From Coptis chinensis (lineage: Eukaryota > Streptophyta > Magnoliopsida > Ranunculales > Ranunculaceae): a stretch of DNA of 64,000 bases. A program made the position numbers and the translations under genes. The stretch is from positions 65,151,501 to 65,215,500 of the forward strand of contig CM027381.1 in assembly GCA_015680905.1 (NCBI GenBank), in the 5' to 3' direction. Positions 17,936-36,697 of the stretch are shown here, piece by piece. The notes under the pieces were generated by a model. The model was not told the origin of the DNA. It did not search any database and was given only the letters and a program-made list of their open reading frames with translations. How positions within the stretch are numbered: position 1 is the first letter of the stretch; each line of letters opens with the position of its first letter.

Positions 17936-19884
17936 TTTGCAACTAGACGTGCCTTATGTTTATCAATAGACCTGCTAGCCTTACGTTTGAGTCGAAAAAC
18001 CCACTTGTTTTTCACATTATTCATAATATTTGCCTGAGAGGGTACTAGTGTCCATGTTCCATTCCTGATAAATGCATTCATATCATCATCCATTGCACGA
18101 CGCCAATGTGGATTACTAGAAGCTTGTGTGAAGCAAGTAGGTTCATCAGTGTCACCAACCTGCAAATTAAAGGATACTTAGTAGCAGTTAAACACAATTT
18201 CTGAATAGGCTTATAATCATTTGGTGCGACGTGTTATTGTTTTACAAGGGCGATGGTATTGGAGAGGATGATGTAGTGTCTGATTGGTTATTGTCATGTG
18301 TTGGAGTAGGCATAGGTACGGGTAATGCGGGTGAAGAACTAGGTAAAGGCTTAACAAGGTGGGGGTGGTGCCGTGGTGGGGATTTAATAAAATGTGATAC
18401 TTGTCATGGGCAAATATCGTACCTTAATGATATTTCTGTCATATTTCATTTTTCTAAAGCGAGATATCGACATAAGGGTCGATATCTCTATTAAGTTTGA
18501 TATTTCAGCTTTTGTTTCGTACATATTAATAATGAAGGCCCATATCTCCAATAAGTTAAAGGTATTTGTTACTGACGGACCCCATATTGTGTTGGGGAGA
18601 CCCCAAAAACAAAAACAATTATTACAAGTGTGTCATTGGTCCCAAAAAGTTATTTTGTGTTGGGCACCTCCCGAACCAACGTGAATTTATCCTTTTCAGC
18701 CCTTCTCTTCTTTTCTATTCTCTTCTCTTCTACCATCCTAAACCTTAAATCATGAAAACTATATCCTAACACTAACATTAAACACTAGGGCTGAATATGC
18801 ACGTGACTAGGGCTGGATATGCATGTGTACAGTGGCTGAATGAGAAAATTCGAACACCCTAGGCTTAAACGACCCGACTAGGTCGTTCGTTGTGCACACC
18901 AAACGGTCTGGTCACACCGTCTAGACTGAGTCCAAAACGATGTATCCATGTCATTTGGGATTTGGACTTAGAAAAATCCCCAATGGCCATATCGTTAAGG
19001 ACTTAGTCCAAACGGTGTGGTCATATCGTTGGGGATTTTTCTAAGTCCAAATCTCAAACGACATGGACACATCGTTTTGGACTCAGTCCAGATGGTGTGA
19101 CCAGACCGTTTGGTGTGCACAACGAACGACCTAGCCGGGTCGTTTAAGCCTAGGGTGTTCGAATTTTCTCATTCAGCCACTGTACATATGCATATCCAGC
19201 CCTAGTCACGTGCATATTCAGCCCTAGTGTTTATGTTAGTGTTAGGATATAGTTTTCATGGTTTAAGGTTTAGGATGGTGGAAGAGAAGAGAATAGAAGA
19301 GAAGAGAAGGGCTGAAAAGGGGAAATTCACGTTGGTTTGGGAGGTGCCCAACCACTACCAAAAAAAGGAGTTTACCCGACAGACGCCATAAAGAATACCC
19401 AATGGATTCCGTCTATAGGAAGTTCCCAACACATTTTGTCCGTAAGGTATAATCTGACCATCTGTCGGGGTAATCTTGCTGGGTACCCGACGGTTCTACG
19501 AGAGTTGTTAGCCGTAGGCATCTCTTTTCCAAATACCAAGCAGCAAACTAATTTCACTTCCCACCTATTATTTTTGGAAAAATAAGAAAAAAACCAAAAA
19601 AAAAACCCTAAAGCTAACTGTTAGTCCTGTCTCAGCCACTTGCTGCCCGCTTCACTCCCTCACAAATCTCAAATATCAAATTTCAAATTTCAAATCTCTT
19701 ACATAGTCACGCTCAATTAGTTCTCTCCTATATTCCAACGCTCAACCTTCTTCCCTCAGCACTACTACGACCATCTCCAAACCTCGTCTTAATTCCCGCG
19801 AAAACCTCATCCATCTCACAACTATCTCTAACCGTCAAAAACTCCAACAGATCCAACAACTTGAAATCCAAAGCCTCAACCATC

Positions 19885-20058
19885 ATGGCCGCTGTATCTA
19901 TTATTGAGAAAGCGAAACCAGATATCTAGATCTTTGATAACGAAGATGCTCTCTCGGTTTCTCTAGCCAAATACACTGCTGATTTGTCGGAAAGCTTCAT
20001 GAAAGAGAGGGGTGCTTTAACTGTCGTTGTATCCGGTGGTTCCCTCATCATTTCTCAG
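19885..20058 (+). pseudogene. Captured exon 1 of a 6-phosphogluconolactonase gene
   Basis: The ATG at 19,885 opens MAAVSIIEKAKPDI, then IFDNEDALSVSLAKYTADLS and ERGALTVVVSGGSLI, ending at a good donor (TTTCTCAG|GTCAGT). Plant cytosolic 6-phosphogluconolactonases (oxidative pentose phosphate pathway, lactone hydrolysis) begin with this same order, including the conserved SGGSL loop. One in-frame stop (TAG, codon 15) breaks it, and the rest of the enzyme is missing. About 260 bases of promoter or 5' UTR-like sequence (CTCACAAATCTCAAATATC and CT-rich runs) precede it inside the transposon. The next exon in line belongs to an importin gene, so any transcript from here would be chimeric. Recognised from the sequence pattern alone. 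Confidence 0.82.
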
Positions 20059-20286
20059 GTCAGTCTTGTTCATTCCTATTTCTCTGTTAATTGTAAAGTT
20101 ATCGATTTGTTAATACTAACTTTTTTTTTAATTGTTTATTATAATTTGGAATCTCAGGAATGTGTGTGTGTGTTTGTCTCCTTTGTATTTTGTCTGACTA
20201 GAAATCTTAATATTCGAGATGATTGGAGTACGTTTGAAAGAGCCTTAAGATTTTTCACATGTTGTCTTACGGTTCTGAATTTACAG

Positions 20287-21309
20287 AGAAAAGATAAAAC
20301 AGCTTAAGAAAGGAGGATTGATATCTGTATTTTTTATGATGTTGCGGAGCAATAGCGAGAATCAGCTCTTAAGTAAGCAGTGTTTGAAACTACATTTGTT
20401 TAGTGTGAGGTTTTGTGTATGTTTTTCATGCGTGTATTCTCTAACTTGGTTGACAGATACTATGACACTTATCTTCCTTTCCTGTTGGAAGCTTGCAATA
20501 ATGAGAACTCATATGTTAGATAGGTTTGCTTTTCATTCAGTCTTTGTCCTTTCCATTTCCACGAGATTTGTGTCAACAGTTCTCAAAAATGTTATTGAAT
20601 TGCATTTTACTTTCAGGCTATTGTTTATGAGATCGGTGTATGTGCATAATTTGGTGGATATGCTTTTAGGCCTCTTGTTGGAGGTTGGGTGCATATTTTT
20701 ATGTTAATTCATTGAATTGTTCACTATACTCGGTATCAAAAACTGGACCTATTTGTTCTTTATAGAGGCTCTTTCCAGACTAAATGTTGTTATAGGGCAT
20801 CCTAATGCAATGCATTCCGATAATGTAATGGCATATGATAATGTTGTTTCAGACTTGGGAAGATATGTCAGTTTCATCGTGAGAGTATTGATGCTGCCTA
20901 GGCGAATTTTTGGTTTCCATTACATGTTTTTTCAGAGCAAGTTTGGTCTTTGTCATATCTCATCTCTCCTCTTTACGCTAGGGTATAGTACATGAACCGT
21001 AATGAATCGTTACTCTCTTATGTTCTTGGCAGGTTGTTCCTACGTGGTTAAGTTGCTTGCCAATAAAAGGTGATTTAATCGAAGCAAAACTTGTGCATGA
21101 CTAGCTATGTTCAATGGTTGAAAGGTAAGGCAGAGTCACGATGTCCTAAATATCCTTGTTATACATTGTGCCATGGTTCATTTTTCTCTTGATTCTTTTT
21201 GAGCGTGTTCAATTCAATTGCATATTTGGCGTTTATCTACAGGTCAGATGCGATTCTTTTAGGCCCTAATAATCAATATCTTCCTAAAATCGTTGTCGTC
21301 TTTGCTGAG
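20287..21309 (+). pseudogene. Captured importin-5-type karyopherin gene fragment, six exons
   Basis: Six exons keep their order and most splice signals: 20,287-20,372 (DICIFYDVAEQ), 20,457-20,523 (YYDTYLPFLLEACNNEN), 20,617-20,683 (YEIGVCA..FGG), 20,766-20,901 (EALSRLNVVIGHPNAM), 21,033-21,124 (WLSCLPIKGDLIEAKLVHD) and 21,243-21,309 (LLGPNNQYLPKIVVVFAE). Together they match the C-terminal HEAT-repeat region of plant importin-5/Ran-binding protein 5, a nuclear import receptor. The last exon and the whole N-terminal part are absent. In-frame stops are seen in exons 1, 2, 3 and 5; exon 4 has lost one base near 20,862 and its donor is GC instead of GT. It is not a working importin. Its retained introns show capture from DNA rather than mRNA. 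Confidence 0.85.
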
Positions 21310-22617
21310 GTAATACTTATCTCATTTTTTTTTTTAACTTCCACTATTTCATTTTCTTTTTAGTTATTTTGGTTAAAAAAGTTTCAAAATTCTACATTGA
21401 TCTCATTGTTTTGAAAAAAGTCCAATTATCATCTCTGGGTAGTTAAATGGCTATTAGCTAAAGTTTTGGTGAACCTCTGGGTAGTTATAGAGCACTCTTA
21501 GTCTCTTAATTACAAGTTTCTGAACCATCAGATGTTTGTTTTATACCATTTTCATATTCTCATGGTTATTCCTTTTTCTACATAAATGTGTATGCGATTG
21601 AAAACTCTGTTCATAGGAATGACGTGGGTCCCTTAATTTCTACATAAATATGGTATGGAATGCTTATATAATTACCGTATTGAGTTTGTACTAGGGAAAC
21701 ATCTGTAACAAGGGAGTATATAGTCTTGTTCTTGTGACATGTTTACTGTTGTCTAGTGATATCAAAATAATTGTTCTAGCTCTTACACTAACTCTAGTGG
21801 ATCTTTGTTGTCATGCACAAGTTGGTTATGACTAGAGCAAGGGTGGAGAAAATCATAATCCATTAGCAACAAAGAATTATATTTACCTCTCTACTTACCA
21901 CAGGTAACAACATTTACGTTGTTAACTTGAATATAAGTTTATTTACTGTACCATATTATTTTTGTGCCCAACGTTCTTAGGTTCTGGTTAGACTAGAAAA
22001 CTATATTAGATTTGGATCGGATAGGTGCTAAAAATAAGAATTGGCATTTTCATGCCCAGAGTACCTGGGATCCTTTTGAGACTAAGATTACAGAAGTCTA
22101 ATAAAAATGTTTGAGCTATCCACGACTATGATTAGTAGTAGTTTACGTCTTTTCCTTAATGATCTTTTATCATGTGTGGTTCAAGAGATTGAATGTAATT
22201 TTAATCTAAGTACAGAATTTCCCTCTGACATTTTTTTTTTTGGTTGGTAGGAAAGTGAAGTCAAAGGGAAACCGCGTCTTGGATCGAAACAATGGTAGAA
22301 AGTGAAAATGTACTTGGTTTTTGTCAGGGTTTAGCCTGGGAAGTTAGAAAGTGTTAGAAGACACCATTTTGTTTTCTGTAAAGAGCTTGACATCCTTGTA
22401 GACTTGGGCATTACAGAAGTATGGAGAGATGGTGTTATAATTTTATCGAATCATTGGTATTACACGTCCTTTCTAAGTGTGCTAGATACTAAGTATAGCT
22501 CTTTTGTAATAATTATGATGTTGGCTTGAAAAAGAATGTGATGTTGGGATCTTTTATTAAAATCCCAATATATAATTTTTTTTTTAAAAAAGAATTTATT
22601 TTCGACGGACATAAACT
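21310..22617. other. CACTA interior without a recognised gene
   Basis: AT-rich sequence between the importin fragment and the subterminal repeats. A short stretch at about 22,257-22,300 (ESEVKGKPRLGSKQW) ends in a stop and is followed by UTR-like sequence. It could be the tail of a third captured gene, but I cannot assign it. Intron-like pyrimidine runs occur near 21,320 and 22,232. Confidence 0.4.
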
Positions 22618-22830
22618 GTCGTAGATATACCCGACGGTCAAAGACAATAGGAATACCCGACGGTCTTTAACCCCAGCAATACTCGATGTTCATTAACAGT
22701 AGCCATATCCGACGGTCTTTGACAGTAGTAATATCCGACGGTTAGTGTCTGCAGCAATACCCGACGGTCTATGACAGCTGCAATGTCTGTCGTATAGATA
22801 CCAGACGCCGACGGCCTATTTTGACTGTTT
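22618..22830. repeat. CACTA subterminal repeats (CCGACGGTC type)
   Basis: CCCGACGGTC or a one-base variant recurs about seven times in both AATA- and GCAATA- contexts. Matching CCCGACAG and CCCGACGG words lie at the other end (19,372-19,495). Such arrays are the usual transposase binding region of CACTA elements. Confidence 0.8.
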
Positions 22831-23325
22831 TTTACTATCGGAAGCCTATATCGACCGAGCATTTTTCGACAATCGTGCGACAGTTTTTGTCTGTACGGTA
22901 ATACCTTTTGCGACAGTTTTTGTCTGTCGGATAAAGTCCTTCTTGTAGTGAACACAAAACAACTTTTTGGGACCAATGACATACTTGTAATAATTGTTTT
23001 TGTTTTTGGGGTCTGCCTAACACAATATGGGGTCCGTCAGTAATAAGACCCTAAGTTAAATTGTTGTAGGTAAGAGCGGGAGAAAAAGGGAGAAGATGGA
23101 CACATGTCAATAGTTGATTGGTGATGATCTAAAGTAAAACACTATATAAAGACCAAAGCAGGAGAGAAATTCATTATGTTTCTTCCCACAAAAGAATTGT
23201 AAACCAGAGAGAGAGGAACTTGTAACCGACATTGTTAAGTAATAAAACTTTTATTTCCTTCATCTAGAATCAGCAATCACTATCAATAACCATAAATCTT
23301 TAGCGTTTCTTCCTTGTCCACTACA

Positions 23326-24400: not shown

Positions 24401-26689
24401 TTATCTTACAATAGGCTTCAGTCCCATACTTCTGGCAGTAGTCCACACTTTTTCTCTGGCCAGAGCTTTAGTAAATGGATCTACAAGATTATCACTGGAT
24501 CTCACAAAATCAATAGTCACTACACCCTTGGATATGTAATCCCGTACAGTACTATGTTTACGATGTATCTGTCGTGATTTACCATTATAAAACTTGTTGT
24601 GGACTCTCCCGATAGCTGTAGTGCTATCACAATGTATCAAGGTAGCTGGTACCGGTGTATTCCAAACCGGTATGTGAGTGAGTAGGTCCCGTAACCAACC
24701 AGCCTCCTCACTTGCACTAGCCAAAGCAATCATCTCAGACTCCATAGTAGATTGTGCTATAATGGTCTGTTTCTTAGACTTCCAAGATACAGCACCTCCA
24801 CCAATGTAGAACACATATCCACTAGTAGCCTTAGAGTCTTCTAAAAGAGTATTCCAATCAGCATCAATGTACCCTTCAAGAATAGCAGGAAATCTCTGAT
24901 AATGAATACCCAAATTGATTGTTCTCTTTAGGTATCTCATTAACCTGCCTATTGCTTGCGAATGTTCAACACTAGGGTTACTAGTGTACCTGCATAGAAC
25001 ACCTACTGCATAGGCAATGTCAAGTCTTGTACAATCTGTACCAATGATACTAGCATATTCCTTCTGATTCACAGGTTCACCATTATTAATAAACAATTTA
25101 ACACTTGAATCAAAATGTGAGGAAACAGGCTTACAATCAAAGTAGTTATACTTCTTTAACACTTTCTCAACGTAGTGTGACTGATCTAACCATATGTTAT
25201 CTGATGATCTTGTAATTTTAATCCCTAAAATTACTTCTACTTCTCCTAAGTCTTTCATATCAAAGTTAGAAGACAACAAGTCTTTGGTCTCTTTTACCGC
25301 ATGCAAATTAGACCTAAAAATAAGTAAATCATCAACATATAAGCATATTATAACACATATTCCATCATAGTACTTATAGTATATGCATTTGTCACTTTCG
25401 TTTATGTAGAAACCATTAGCAATCATAAAGTTATCAAATTTTTCATGCCATTGTTTCGGTGCTTGTTTTAAACCATAAAGTGACTTCACTAACTTGCATA
25501 CCTTTTTACTATTACCTTGTTCCACATAACCTGTTGGTTGTTCCATGTAAATCTCCTCTTCTAAATCCCCATTTAGAAAGGCTGTCTTAACATCCATCTG
25601 ATGAACAACTAGATTATGAACAGCAGCAATAGATAATAATACTCTAATTGAAGTTATCCTAGTAACTGGTGAATATATATTAAAGAAGTCAAAGTTCTCT
25701 TTTTGTCGAAAACCTTTGACAACTAGTTTGGCCTTGAACTTTTCTACTGAACCATCCATTTTAAACTTCCTTTTTAAAACCCATTTGCTTCTTATAGTTT
25801 TACAACTAGGAGGCAAATCCACTAACTCCCAAGTCTTGTTTTCCATGAGAGAATCTATCTCACTCTGAATAGCTTCTTTCCAAAACTCAGAGTCAGAAGA
25901 GGCAAAAGCTTCTTCTATGGAGGAGGGATCTCCTTCCAAAGAAAACACCACAAAATCAGATCCTAGATCTTTAGCGACCCTAGCTCTTTTACTTCTTCTT
26001 GGTTCACTCACAGTGCCTGTATCCCTATCATGCAATCTAGATACATCAGTAGCAGAAACATCTTTGGTAGGGGTCTTAGAGGAAGATGCACCCCGACTAG
26101 CACCCCCACTATTTCTAGATAAATAGGGAAAACTATCTTCTAAAAACTCGGCATCGGATGATTCAATAATAACATTACTCTTCATAACAAGAAATCTATA
26201 GGCCTTACTATTCATAGCATATCCTAAAAAGACACACTCATAGGCCTTACTCTCAAGCTTAGAGATTTTGGGGTCATGCTTCCTTACAACCCATGTCCTG
26301 AAATAACTCAAGTTGGGCTTTCTATTTTTCCATAGCTCATAAGGTGTAACCTTAGTTTTAGAACTCGCAATTCTATTCAAAACATAGCATATAGTTAAAA
26401 CAGCTTCACCCCATAAACTTGAGGATGCTCCAGAACTAAGCAACATAGCAACAATTAATTCCTTAAGTGTTATGTTATTACTTTCAGCTACTCTATTCAT
26501 TTCAGGTGAATAAGGAGCTATCGTCTCGTGAATTATACCATGTGATTGTAAGAAAAGATTAAAATCATTAGAATCATACTCAGTACCTCTATCACTTCGA
26601 ATTACTTTAATGTTTCTATCATGCTGATTTTGAACCTCAATAACATAAGCTTTAAAAACACTTAAAGCATCACTCTTATTATTCAACAA
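24401..26689 (-). CDS. Reverse transcriptase-RNase H part of the copia element (fossil)
   Basis: The reading frame begins inside the integrase core ([22 protein letters not shown]). It passes through the reverse transcriptase ([40 protein letters not shown]) and ends in RNase H ([36 protein letters not shown]). It copies element RNA into DNA in the particle. The YVDD active-site box is present. It belongs to the element above and overlaps the preceding part slightly. Treated as a fossil. Confidence 0.9.
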
Positions 26690-27492
26690 ATAAACATAGG
26701 TAAATTTCGAAAATCATCAATGAAGGTAATAAAATATCTTTTACCACCTCTAGTTAGAAAACCTTCAAGTTCACAAATATCAGAATGTACTAATGCTAGC
26801 AGATTTGTACTTCTCTCAACTGATTTGTGAGGTTTCTTAGTGATTTTGGCCTTGGTGCATGATTCACAGTGTACAAAATCATCATTCTTCAAGATAGGAA
26901 TTAAACCTAGTGTGCTCATGTTCTTAACATACTTCCTATTAATATGACATAATCTACCATGCCAAACATTAACATAATAAACAATCATGTAAGTAGAAGT
27001 AGAAGTTTTATTAATGTCAGGAACATTCAACTTAAACATCCCATTACATGCATATCCCTTGCCAACAAAAATTCCAGACTTAGTGATCACATACTGATCA
27101 CTAACTATCACTTGCTGAAAACCAACCTTGTTCAGAATAAAACCAGAAACTAAAGTCTTCCTAATATCAGGTGTATGAAGAACATCCTTCAAAACCAATT
27201 TCTTCCCATAAGTAAACACCAACTCCACATCACCAGAACCTACAACCTTGATAGTATGGTTGTCGCCTAATAGAACTTCCTGGTTCACAGTTGTAGTATA
27301 ACTCTTGAACCAGTTTATATCAAAATAGACATGACTAGAAGCACCAATATCAGCCCACCATCCCTCAGAGACATTGACAGAATTGACTTCAGTTATCATT
27401 GCCACAAAAGTGTCCTCAGTGACATTAGCCTCATTTCGGTTCTTGCAGTTACGAGCATAATGTCCCTTTTTTTTTGCATGTATAACAGACAA
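26683..27492 (-). CDS. Protease and integrase N-terminal part of the copia element (fossil)
   Basis: Shows the protease-like [10 protein letters not shown] box, the GAG-pre-integrase segment ([12 protein letters not shown]) and the integrase zinc region ([14 protein letters not shown]) with the start of the core (HSDICELE). A zinc-knuckle stretch (KKGHYARNC) opens it. In copia elements this part processes the polyprotein and inserts the DNA copy. Confidence 0.85.
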
Positions 27493-27631
27493 CTTCTGTC
27501 ATGTCTACTGTTGGCCTTTGGTTCATATTAACCTGGTTCTGGTTCTTAAGTGGAGCTTTCTTGTTGTTATTAGGTTTGTTCTTCATTGCCTTTTTATTAG
27601 GTTTCATATTAGAATTGGTTTTATTAGCATG

Positions 27632-28294
27632 CTAATTTATGATATTAACTTTAGCCTTGGCAAATGACATAGCCACTTCCTCATTGTGGTCCTGTTTTCG
27701 GGATTCTTCTTCAATCCGGAGTCTCATAATGAGACTCTCCATCGAAAACTCCTTGGATTTATGTCTAAGAATGTTTTTGAAATCCTTCCATGAGGGAGGA
27801 AGCTTATCAATGACGACTGCAACTTGAAATTGCTCGTCAATCTTCATTCCCTCATAAAGTATTTCATGAACAACTATTTGTAGGTTGTGACACTGAGTCA
27901 CAACCAACTTGTCATCTTCCATCTGGAATTTAAGGTAACGACTTACAACATAATTTTTCGAGCGAGCCTCCTCAGTATCATATTTCTTCTGCAGGGCATC
28001 CCACACATCAGAAGTAGTTGGAAGATAGCAATACAGGTCATCAGTAAGTGCATTCAGGATATAGTTCTTACACTTGAAATCCTCAGCATTCCATTTGTTG
28101 ACAGCAATAGTAAGAGCAGGTTCCAACAGATCATCCCCCGTAGGTCGTTTCTCTGTCAGAACATTATCAACCTTCACCAAGGTCAGATAAAATGTCATCT
28201 TTGCTTTCCACCGTTTGAAATTTTGACCGGCAAACTTGAAAGGGCGATTATTGTTATTGTCGTTTCTGAAGTGGCTTCCTTCCTCTTGTTCCAT
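27632..28294 (-). CDS. gag part of the copia element (fossil)
   Basis: Starts MEQEEGSHFRNDNN, chosen because it is the first ATG that leads straight into the gag domain (FKFAGQNFKRWKAKMTFYL). It continues through WDALQKKYDTEEA and LPPSWKDFKNILRHK, the standard UBN2/gag order in plant copia elements. It forms the particle shell. I could not recognise a clear primer site between it and the 5' LTR. Confidence 0.88.
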   Translation of the reverse strand: MEQEEGSHFRNDNNNNRPFKFAGQNFKRWKAKMTFYLTLVKVDNVLTEKRPTGDDLLEPALTIAVNKWNAEDFKCKNYILNALTDDLYCYLPTTSDVWDALQKKYDTEEARSKNYVVSRYLKFQMEDDKLVVTQCHNLQIVVHEILYEGMKIDEQFQVAVVIDKLPPSWKDFKNILRHKSKEFSMESLIMRLRIEEESRKQDHNEEVAMSFAKAKVNIIN

Positions 28295-28321
28295 TGTTAA
28301 AAAGAGAAAATACCTTAAAAT

Positions 28322-28789
28322 TGTTGGAAAACAATCTGCAAAAAACAGGATTAACAATGAAATTGGAAGCTGAGGTGCGGACTAGGTCGCTCTCTTTAAG
28401 GTATTGTGGGTCTGTTCCTCCTGGCGCAGATAGACACAGAACCTCCAGGATACAATAGCCTCTGTAAATGTCTTGATGATCACTACACAGCAAAAACCAA
28501 AACCGGAAAAGAGAACAAGAACTAATAGTCTACTGCCATAAGGGAGAGAAGTTTTTCTTAAAGAGAGGGAAGATGTGAAAAAACTGGTGTGTTTGGTCTG
28601 CTGTAAAGCCTTGTATATATAAGCTCAAGAGAGTGTAACATTAGTTCTCAATTGTCAACTCTCAACGTTATAGTAAAAAAGTAACGTTCCAACAATAATG
28701 TCTCGGTTACAGATTTATAGTCAAAGCAAAACGTTTCTTTTGTTTCAAAACAAACCAAAACTGATTTTCGTATTTTAAAATAACCAACA
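28322..28789 (-). repeat. 5' LTR of the 5.4-kb copia element
   Basis: 468 bp, TGTTGG..CCAACA, matching 23,357-23,827. The TATA-like CTTGTATATATAAGC near 28,611 is shared with CTTGTATATATAGGC near 23,649. Confidence 0.93.

Positions 28790-33042: not shown

Positions 33043-36697
<3,655 letters not shown>

Follow-up and report, generated by a model that had tools for sequence, protein, structure and literature searches.

A non-autonomous CACTA transposon of Coptis chinensis carrying fragments of three host genes, with signs of their stepwise capture

We analysed a 64,000-nucleotide stretch of the Coptis chinensis genome (the window; C5:65151501–65215500, contig CM027381.1 of assembly GCA_015680905.1), with the 935.6-Mb assembly as the search space for all genome searches. 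The window contains a non-autonomous CACTA (En/Spm) transposon that carries fragments of three host genes in one common orientation (+), encoding 6-phosphogluconolactonase (PGL), importin-5 and the mRNA export factor RAE1 (Table 1). We consider it about 90% probable that this is a Pack-CACTA element in which the gene pieces were captured stepwise, are mobilised in trans and travel as passengers. An earlier note on the same DNA had described exons of two unrelated genes lined up like a shuffled chimeric gene; both genes could be identified together with their donors, but the RAE1 fragment had been missed, and of the gene-like picture the order and orientation stand whereas the coding capacity does not.

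Table 1 Features of the element and its insertion site (window positions)
Feature	Positions	Strand	Evidence or remark
Whole CACTA element, family A, 3,598 bp	19353–22950	+	Ends, flanks, empty site, genome matches
Left target-site duplication AAC	19350–19352	.	Flank read and single-AAC empty site
Right target-site duplication AAC	22951–22953	.	Flank read and single-AAC empty site
5′ terminal module, terminus CACTACCAAAAAAAGG	19353–19718	+	Occurs at many genome places
Captured PGL fragment: 5′ untranslated region (UTR), exon 1, intron 1, first bases of exon 2	19719–20160	+	88–92% to donor-like loci
PGL exon 1 pseudo-exon	19885–20058	+	TAG at codon 15, 2-base loss
Captured importin-5 block, introns included, colinear with donor C7:7961679–7963206	20163–21701	+	4-base overlap with the RAE1 piece at its end
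Importin-5 exon A	20287–20372	+	2 in-frame stops
Importin-5 exon B	20457–20523	+	Stop at codon 22
Importin-5 exon C	20617–20683	+	Stop common to 4/4 family-A copies
Importin-5 exon D	20766–20901	+	1-base deletion common to 4/4 family-A copies; donor site lost
Importin-5 exon E	21033–21124	+	Stop common to 4/4 family-A copies
Importin-5 exon F	21243–21309	+	
Captured RAE1 3′ end: two last exons, introns, 3′ UTR	21698–22401	+	Donor stretch C4:19429864–19430648
RAE1 penultimate exon	21821–21903	+	Stop, 2 extra bases
RAE1 last exon	22251–22305	+	Altered length
3′ terminal region, 26-base subterminal repeats with CCGACGGT, terminus CTTCTTGTAGTG	22402–22950	+	
Empty paralogous site, other arm of host inverted-repeat element	18566–18778	-	Alignment of joined flanks

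Results

Element ends and insertion site

The element starts with CACTACCAAAAAAAGG, ends with CTTCTTGTAGTG and is set between two AAC triplets, at the positions where the earlier note had placed its ends and target-site duplication. The inverted termini typical of CACTA elements (CACTACCAAAAAAAGG...TTGTAGTG) are present, with an imperfect terminal inverted repeat of 28 nt (82% complementary), and subterminal repeats occur as a 26-base unit holding CCGACGGT (22621–22802), together with one CCGACGGT word near the 5′ end. A transposase-sized frame is absent from 19353–22950, where no open reading frame reaches 150 aa. A genome search with the 5′ module alone gave at least 43 matches (the best 40 of 282 candidates were scored).

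We joined both flanks with one AAC and used the resulting 240 nt as a query for an empty insertion site. The joined flanks aligned to window 18566–18778 (minus strand) without a gap across the joint and with a single AAC; repeat copies elsewhere in the genome also span the joint, for example C6:61231531–61231743 over positions 1–213 of 240, as judged from the match ranges (the best 40 of 1,440 candidates were scored). The aligned segment belongs to the other arm of a host inverted repeat, the arms of which extend over at least 18659–18983 and 19029–19352; the gap-free, single-AAC match therefore indicates that the element jumped into one arm of an inverted-repeat element. The host sequence itself (18541–19352 and 22954–23040) resembles a foldback element, with arms of at least 320 nt that are 94–97% complementary and many copies in the genome; the CACTA insertion occupies its right arm.

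Captured fragments and their donors

The PGL exon 1 recognised earlier turned out to be part of a larger PGL-derived stretch, and the six importin-5 exons, likewise read correctly, lie inside a contiguous donor block. Two donor-like loci were found for PGL, both on contig C57. The closer one (L037, C57:165138–165744) is 92% identical over 400 columns, with 51/52 matching bases at the intron end, and its match is interrupted by ~156 bases; the other (L036, C57:158646–159068) is 88% identical to the window fragment. The peptide from the first two exons of L036 matched 6-phosphogluconolactonases (best E 5e-9), and a later exon nearby (C57:157022–157465) contains a stop. Within the L037 region (C57:164001–167000), the ~156-base insert lies in intron 1 and, by eye, has inverted ACCTAGGTTACAT-like ends; its appearance is that of a small repeat that was inserted after the capture.

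The importin-5 donor (C7:7961679–7963206) is identical to the window block at 1,429 of 1,562 aligned columns (91%), introns included, and has six open exons, the joined peptide of which matched the importin-5 structure 6xte with E 6e-39. The RAE1 donor (C4:19428212–19430648 for the family, C4:19429864–19430648 for the window piece) contains four open exons, located at the gene's 3′ end. Two RAE1 exons in the longer fragment of a sister copy (L030) matched the mRNA export factor structure 3mmy (E 5.5e-12); the window carries the next two exons after this pair, identified through the DNA match to the same donor. The inner sequence is thus traceable to host genes elsewhere, with three donor loci found. 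Another cargo of some sister elements, absent from the window element, is exon 1 of a plant TOM20 gene.

Copies and family structure

A genome search with the element gave at least 52 matches, with E-values between 0 and 2e-14 (the best 40 of 542 candidates were scored), and ends and flanks were scanned in 19 oriented loci, namely the window and 18 fetched loci (L016–L033). Both ends are intact in 9 of the 19, six of them paired by script and three (L028, L030, L031) read by eye; the 3-bp target duplication is identical in eight of these nine, and matches at two of three bases in L022. L019 has recognisable ends with the last base altered and flanks that do not match, and in the remaining scanned loci, including L017 and L018, one or both ends were not recognised.

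We grouped the loci by structure under letters of our own (A–E). Family A (window, L016, L017, L018) is composed of the 5′ module, PGL, importin-5, RAE1 and the 3′ end; L018 lacks its first 130 bases, and L017 (C4:86026501–86036400) has an insertion of ~450 bases in the 5′ module and an altered 3′ end. In family B (L028–L031), PGL is followed by 262 bases from the start of the importin block and then by a longer RAE1 fragment; L029 lacks its 3′ half, L033 shares just the 3′ half of this family and L024 just its middle. Family C (L019, L020, L032) has a segment Y, importin-5 sequence from further upstream in the donor (donor stretch L035, base 4752) with inner deletions, and then RAE1. Family D (L021–L023, L026) has a segment Z followed by RAE1, and group E (L025, L027) has a longer RAE1 fragment without importin-5. 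PGL and importin-5 thus occur together in four family-A and four family-B copies. Dispersed copies with the same capture and traceable host-gene cargo place the window element, by its sequence features, in a Pack-CACTA family; donors, copies with target duplications of their own and the empty site all agree with the gene-fragment capture that had been proposed.

Additional relatives were found at L038, L039 and L042+L043. The last (C4:85756601–85768300) is an 11.5-kb relative with the same ends, in which the TOM20 first exon lies beside the 5′ module; its TOM20-bearing stretch has end-to-end matches at four other places. The flank of L028 recurs at L045 along with the first 200 bases of the element, and this part of the element was therefore swept up by another repeat.

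Coding state of the captured exons

The expectation of usable splice sites for most exons held: by eye, the importin acceptors are AG in 6/6 exons and the donors GT in 5/6 (exon D being the exception), and the PGL donor site is intact. Of the sister copies, L016 has a changed first importin acceptor that still reads AG, and L018 has lost this acceptor. The in-frame TAG at codon 15 of the window PGL exon had been overlooked; neither this stop nor the 2-base loss was seen in L016, L017 or L018. In family B, PGL exon 1 has a stop at codon 15 in L028 and at codon 36 in L029, and none in L030 and L031. Length changes in both RAE1 exons are common to all four family-A copies.

Donor-like splicing would read importin out of frame, since the donor's PGL exon 1 has phase 2 at its end and importin exon A has phase 0 at its start. 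L017, the one correctly joined sister copy, is accordingly open through importin exons A and B, but out of the importin frame; in the window copy, the 2-base loss restores the importin frame, yet stops lie in PGL exon 1 and in importin exons A and B. No open reading frame that spans the joint and shows coding constraint was found.

Codon changes were counted in exon rows with at least 60% coverage and a score above the cut; shared changes were counted once per copy, so that the counts are not independent. In the A, B and C copies, the aligned importin exons gave 104 non-synonymous against 25 synonymous codon changes, with substitution rates of 0.056/0.036/0.039 at codon positions 1/2/3, as expected without constraint; no sign of codon constraint is seen in the importin-5 pieces. 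PGL showed a third-position excess (0.079, 0.067, 0.153), possibly because the PGL loci have themselves diverged, and RAE1 a weak one (0.066, 0.061, 0.092). Because the intron phases mismatch, the importin stops and frameshift are shared, and codon constraint is lacking, the element appears not to be a working chimeric gene, and its gene pieces look like passengers.

Order of capture and joints

The importin–RAE1 joint is identical to the base in family A and in L019 and L020 of family C (L032 lacks the joint), family C retains more upstream importin sequence than family A, and the PGL–importin joint is common to families A and B. These shared joints, together with the longer family-C importin sequence, indicate that the joining of importin-5 to RAE1 preceded that of PGL to importin-5, and suggest stepwise capture of RAE1, then importin-5, then PGL. 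Distances to the donors in the four family-A copies are 0.094–0.108 for the RAE1 tail and 0.048–0.054 for the whole importin-5 block, which fits an older RAE1 capture.

At the joints we observed, by eye, short words common to both partners, such as ATTG where PGL meets importin and, in family B, TGTTT where importin meets RAE1. At least two unrelated cargoes, importin-5 (families A and C) and segment Z (family D), abut RAE1 at the very same nucleotide, whereas in group E RAE1 runs uninterrupted through this position. In a tree of the RAE1 tail, family D joins E (100/99); a grouping of A+C was not rejected (approximately unbiased test, p-AU 0.37) and A+C+D was (p-AU 1e-5), with 7 of 14 inner branches open and the tested groups picked after the structures had been seen. 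Importin-5 and the unrelated segment were apparently joined to RAE1 at the same nucleotide independently.

Age and spread

Kimura distances among the four family-A copies are 0.027–0.037. In gap-free columns, 196 differences are confined to a single copy (33–57 per copy) and 15 sites split the copies two against two; this star-like pattern points to a burst of family A from one source. At a substitution rate of 6.5e-9 per site per year, the copies are about 2–3 million years old.

Neighbouring features

To the right of the element, window 24401–28357 (-) contains pieces of a Copia-type retrotransposon (reverse transcriptase and gag, with an integrase match below its cut-off), and ~10 kb downstream, 33061–36697 (+) contains exons of a RuvB-like helicase (TIP49 P-loop and AAA-lid domains).

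Discussion

The structures would be accounted for by three captures in succession: the RAE1 3′ end would have been copied into an element, an importin-5 block then joined upstream of RAE1, and the PGL first exon finally joined upstream of importin-5. The pieces may have been joined during break repair, through microhomology or template switching; alternatively, neighbouring elements may have fused. A source copy, in which the importin and RAE1 frames would already have been broken, would then have been moved in trans by a CACTA transposase from another locus, and at least four copies of about the same age would have resulted.

Several observations weigh against this account. PGL distances to both donor-like loci are 0.065–0.091 in the A copies, above those of the importin-5 block, which may mean that the capture order is wrong or that PGL came from another copy. 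Taken alone, the first 208 importin-block bases give 0.066–0.082 in the A copies, overlapping the PGL range, so the distances order the steps weakly. A tree of the whole 3′ module places A with D and E and rejects A+C (p-AU 4e-26), in conflict with the RAE1-tail tree; members of the family therefore exchanged parts, and a simple capture ladder is too simple. The reused RAE1 joint may be a genuine break hotspot, or it may have arisen as a by-product of such exchange. As for mobilisation, the searches revealed no autonomous partner that has these ends: the sole long member read (L042+L043, 11.5 kb) has no stop-to-stop frame of at least 110 aa, and one transposase match beside a family end falls in the flank, outside the element. 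TNP2-type (PF02992) transposases gave at least 150 matches in the genome (the best 150 of 2,715 candidates were scored), and none of those listed, compared by eye with the listed 5′ ends, was tied to these ends.

Fusion of neighbouring element insertions with loss of their inner ends, instead of template switching in break repair, is a published model for Pack-CACTA and other Pack-TYPE elements (the parts of PMC8903248 and of a 2026 review, PMC13317346, that set out the model) and fits the contiguous, intron-bearing donor blocks. The short shared words at the joints argue the other way, and remnants of inner ends were not seen by eye within 40–50 bases on each side of the joints, with no wider search made; a search for the end modules in the donor stretches L034–L037, L040 and L041 gave two matches only, one spanning 19 bases (E 0.01) and one 21 bases (E 8e-4); both lie in L034, on the upstream side of the importin block, and we judge them to be chance. 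We regard fusion as possible, with the odds somewhat against it. The element family might also be viewed as a cassette in which the 5′ module and the 3′ end are fixed, the latter retaining the RAE1 3′ UTR and often the last RAE1 exons, while the gene starts and inner exons between them change. The cargoes found between the ends (PGL, importin-5, TOM20, segments Y and Z), the sense orientation of all four identified genes and the RAE1 joint base used by two or more unrelated cargoes are in line with this view, which we hold to be unlikely.

A functional role for the cargo is less probable still. Small interfering RNAs from the element could dampen the importin-5, RAE1 or PGL donors, or the fragments could camouflage the transposon from silencing, an idea discussed for CACTA elements in the relevant part of PMC8978399, and several copies are highly identical to the donors; however, the donor matches carry one mismatch per ~10–20 bases and nothing in the present data selects for such a role, which we judge very unlikely. 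A new chimeric protein gene, with the 5′ module driving a transcript from the PGL ATG through the importin-5 exons to the RAE1 polyadenylation site, would agree with the gene-like order of the co-oriented fragments (first exon, inner exons, last exons and 3′ UTR), with the splice sites that the window retains, with the absence of the window's PGL stop from three of four family-A copies and with the open join of L017. That join is the very one thrown out of the importin frame by the phase mismatch, the frame restored in the window runs into stops, and the importin stops and frameshift and the RAE1 length changes are common to all four copies; with importin codon positions unconstrained and the first importin acceptor altered or lost in two sisters, such a gene is extremely improbable. 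Stepwise capture of passenger fragments by a Pack-CACTA element remains our preferred explanation.

Gene capture by CACTA elements is already well known, and its mechanism is disputed. Kawasaki and Nitasaka reportedly described in 2004 the Tpn1 family of Japanese morning glory, En/Spm-related elements that capture host genes, and Helitrons are said in one study (PMC3288121) to capture stepwise. A close likeness is to soybean Tgm-Express1, a CACTA element with five host gene fragments in the wp allele, the exons of which enter chimeric transcripts by splicing (as far as the wp description in PMC1947982 goes). Both have CACTA ends and fragments, exons as well as introns, of several unrelated genes; Tgm-Express1 lies within a gene and its chimeric RNAs have been shown, whereas the window element lies in a repeat and, unlike Tgm-Express1, has relatives that display the capture steps.

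Pack-CACTA and other Pack-TYPE elements of Arabidopsis, rice and maize are likewise non-autonomous, with shared ends, captured coding fragments and stepwise addition within a family; nested captures are described in rice and maize, including two in maize Pack-PIF cluster 18 (PMC8903248, in its account of nested elements). Compared with the examples given there, the blocks are longer here (0.44, 1.5 and 0.7 kb), three captures lie in one element, and a joint is used with two different partners. CACTA elements of Chenopodium also carry host gene pieces in their 5′ region; those described in the corresponding part of PMC8978399 are short (80–204 bp) and lie upstream of the element's own coding domain, whereas the window element has no transposase-sized frame.

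In the Coptis family, several stages of capture stand side by side: RAE1 lacking importin-5, RAE1 plus importin-5, and RAE1 plus both importin-5 and PGL, along with variants that carry different cargo. As the window element cautions, exons that are arranged as in a gene and have good splice sites need not form one. If the RAE1 joint base were a recurrent break-and-fill site, the family would amount to a natural device for exon assembly, in which there is a preferred entry point and gene-like polarity is kept. Since the stages occur side by side, with donors and joints readable to the base, the family offers a good natural series for weighing neighbour fusion against template switching.

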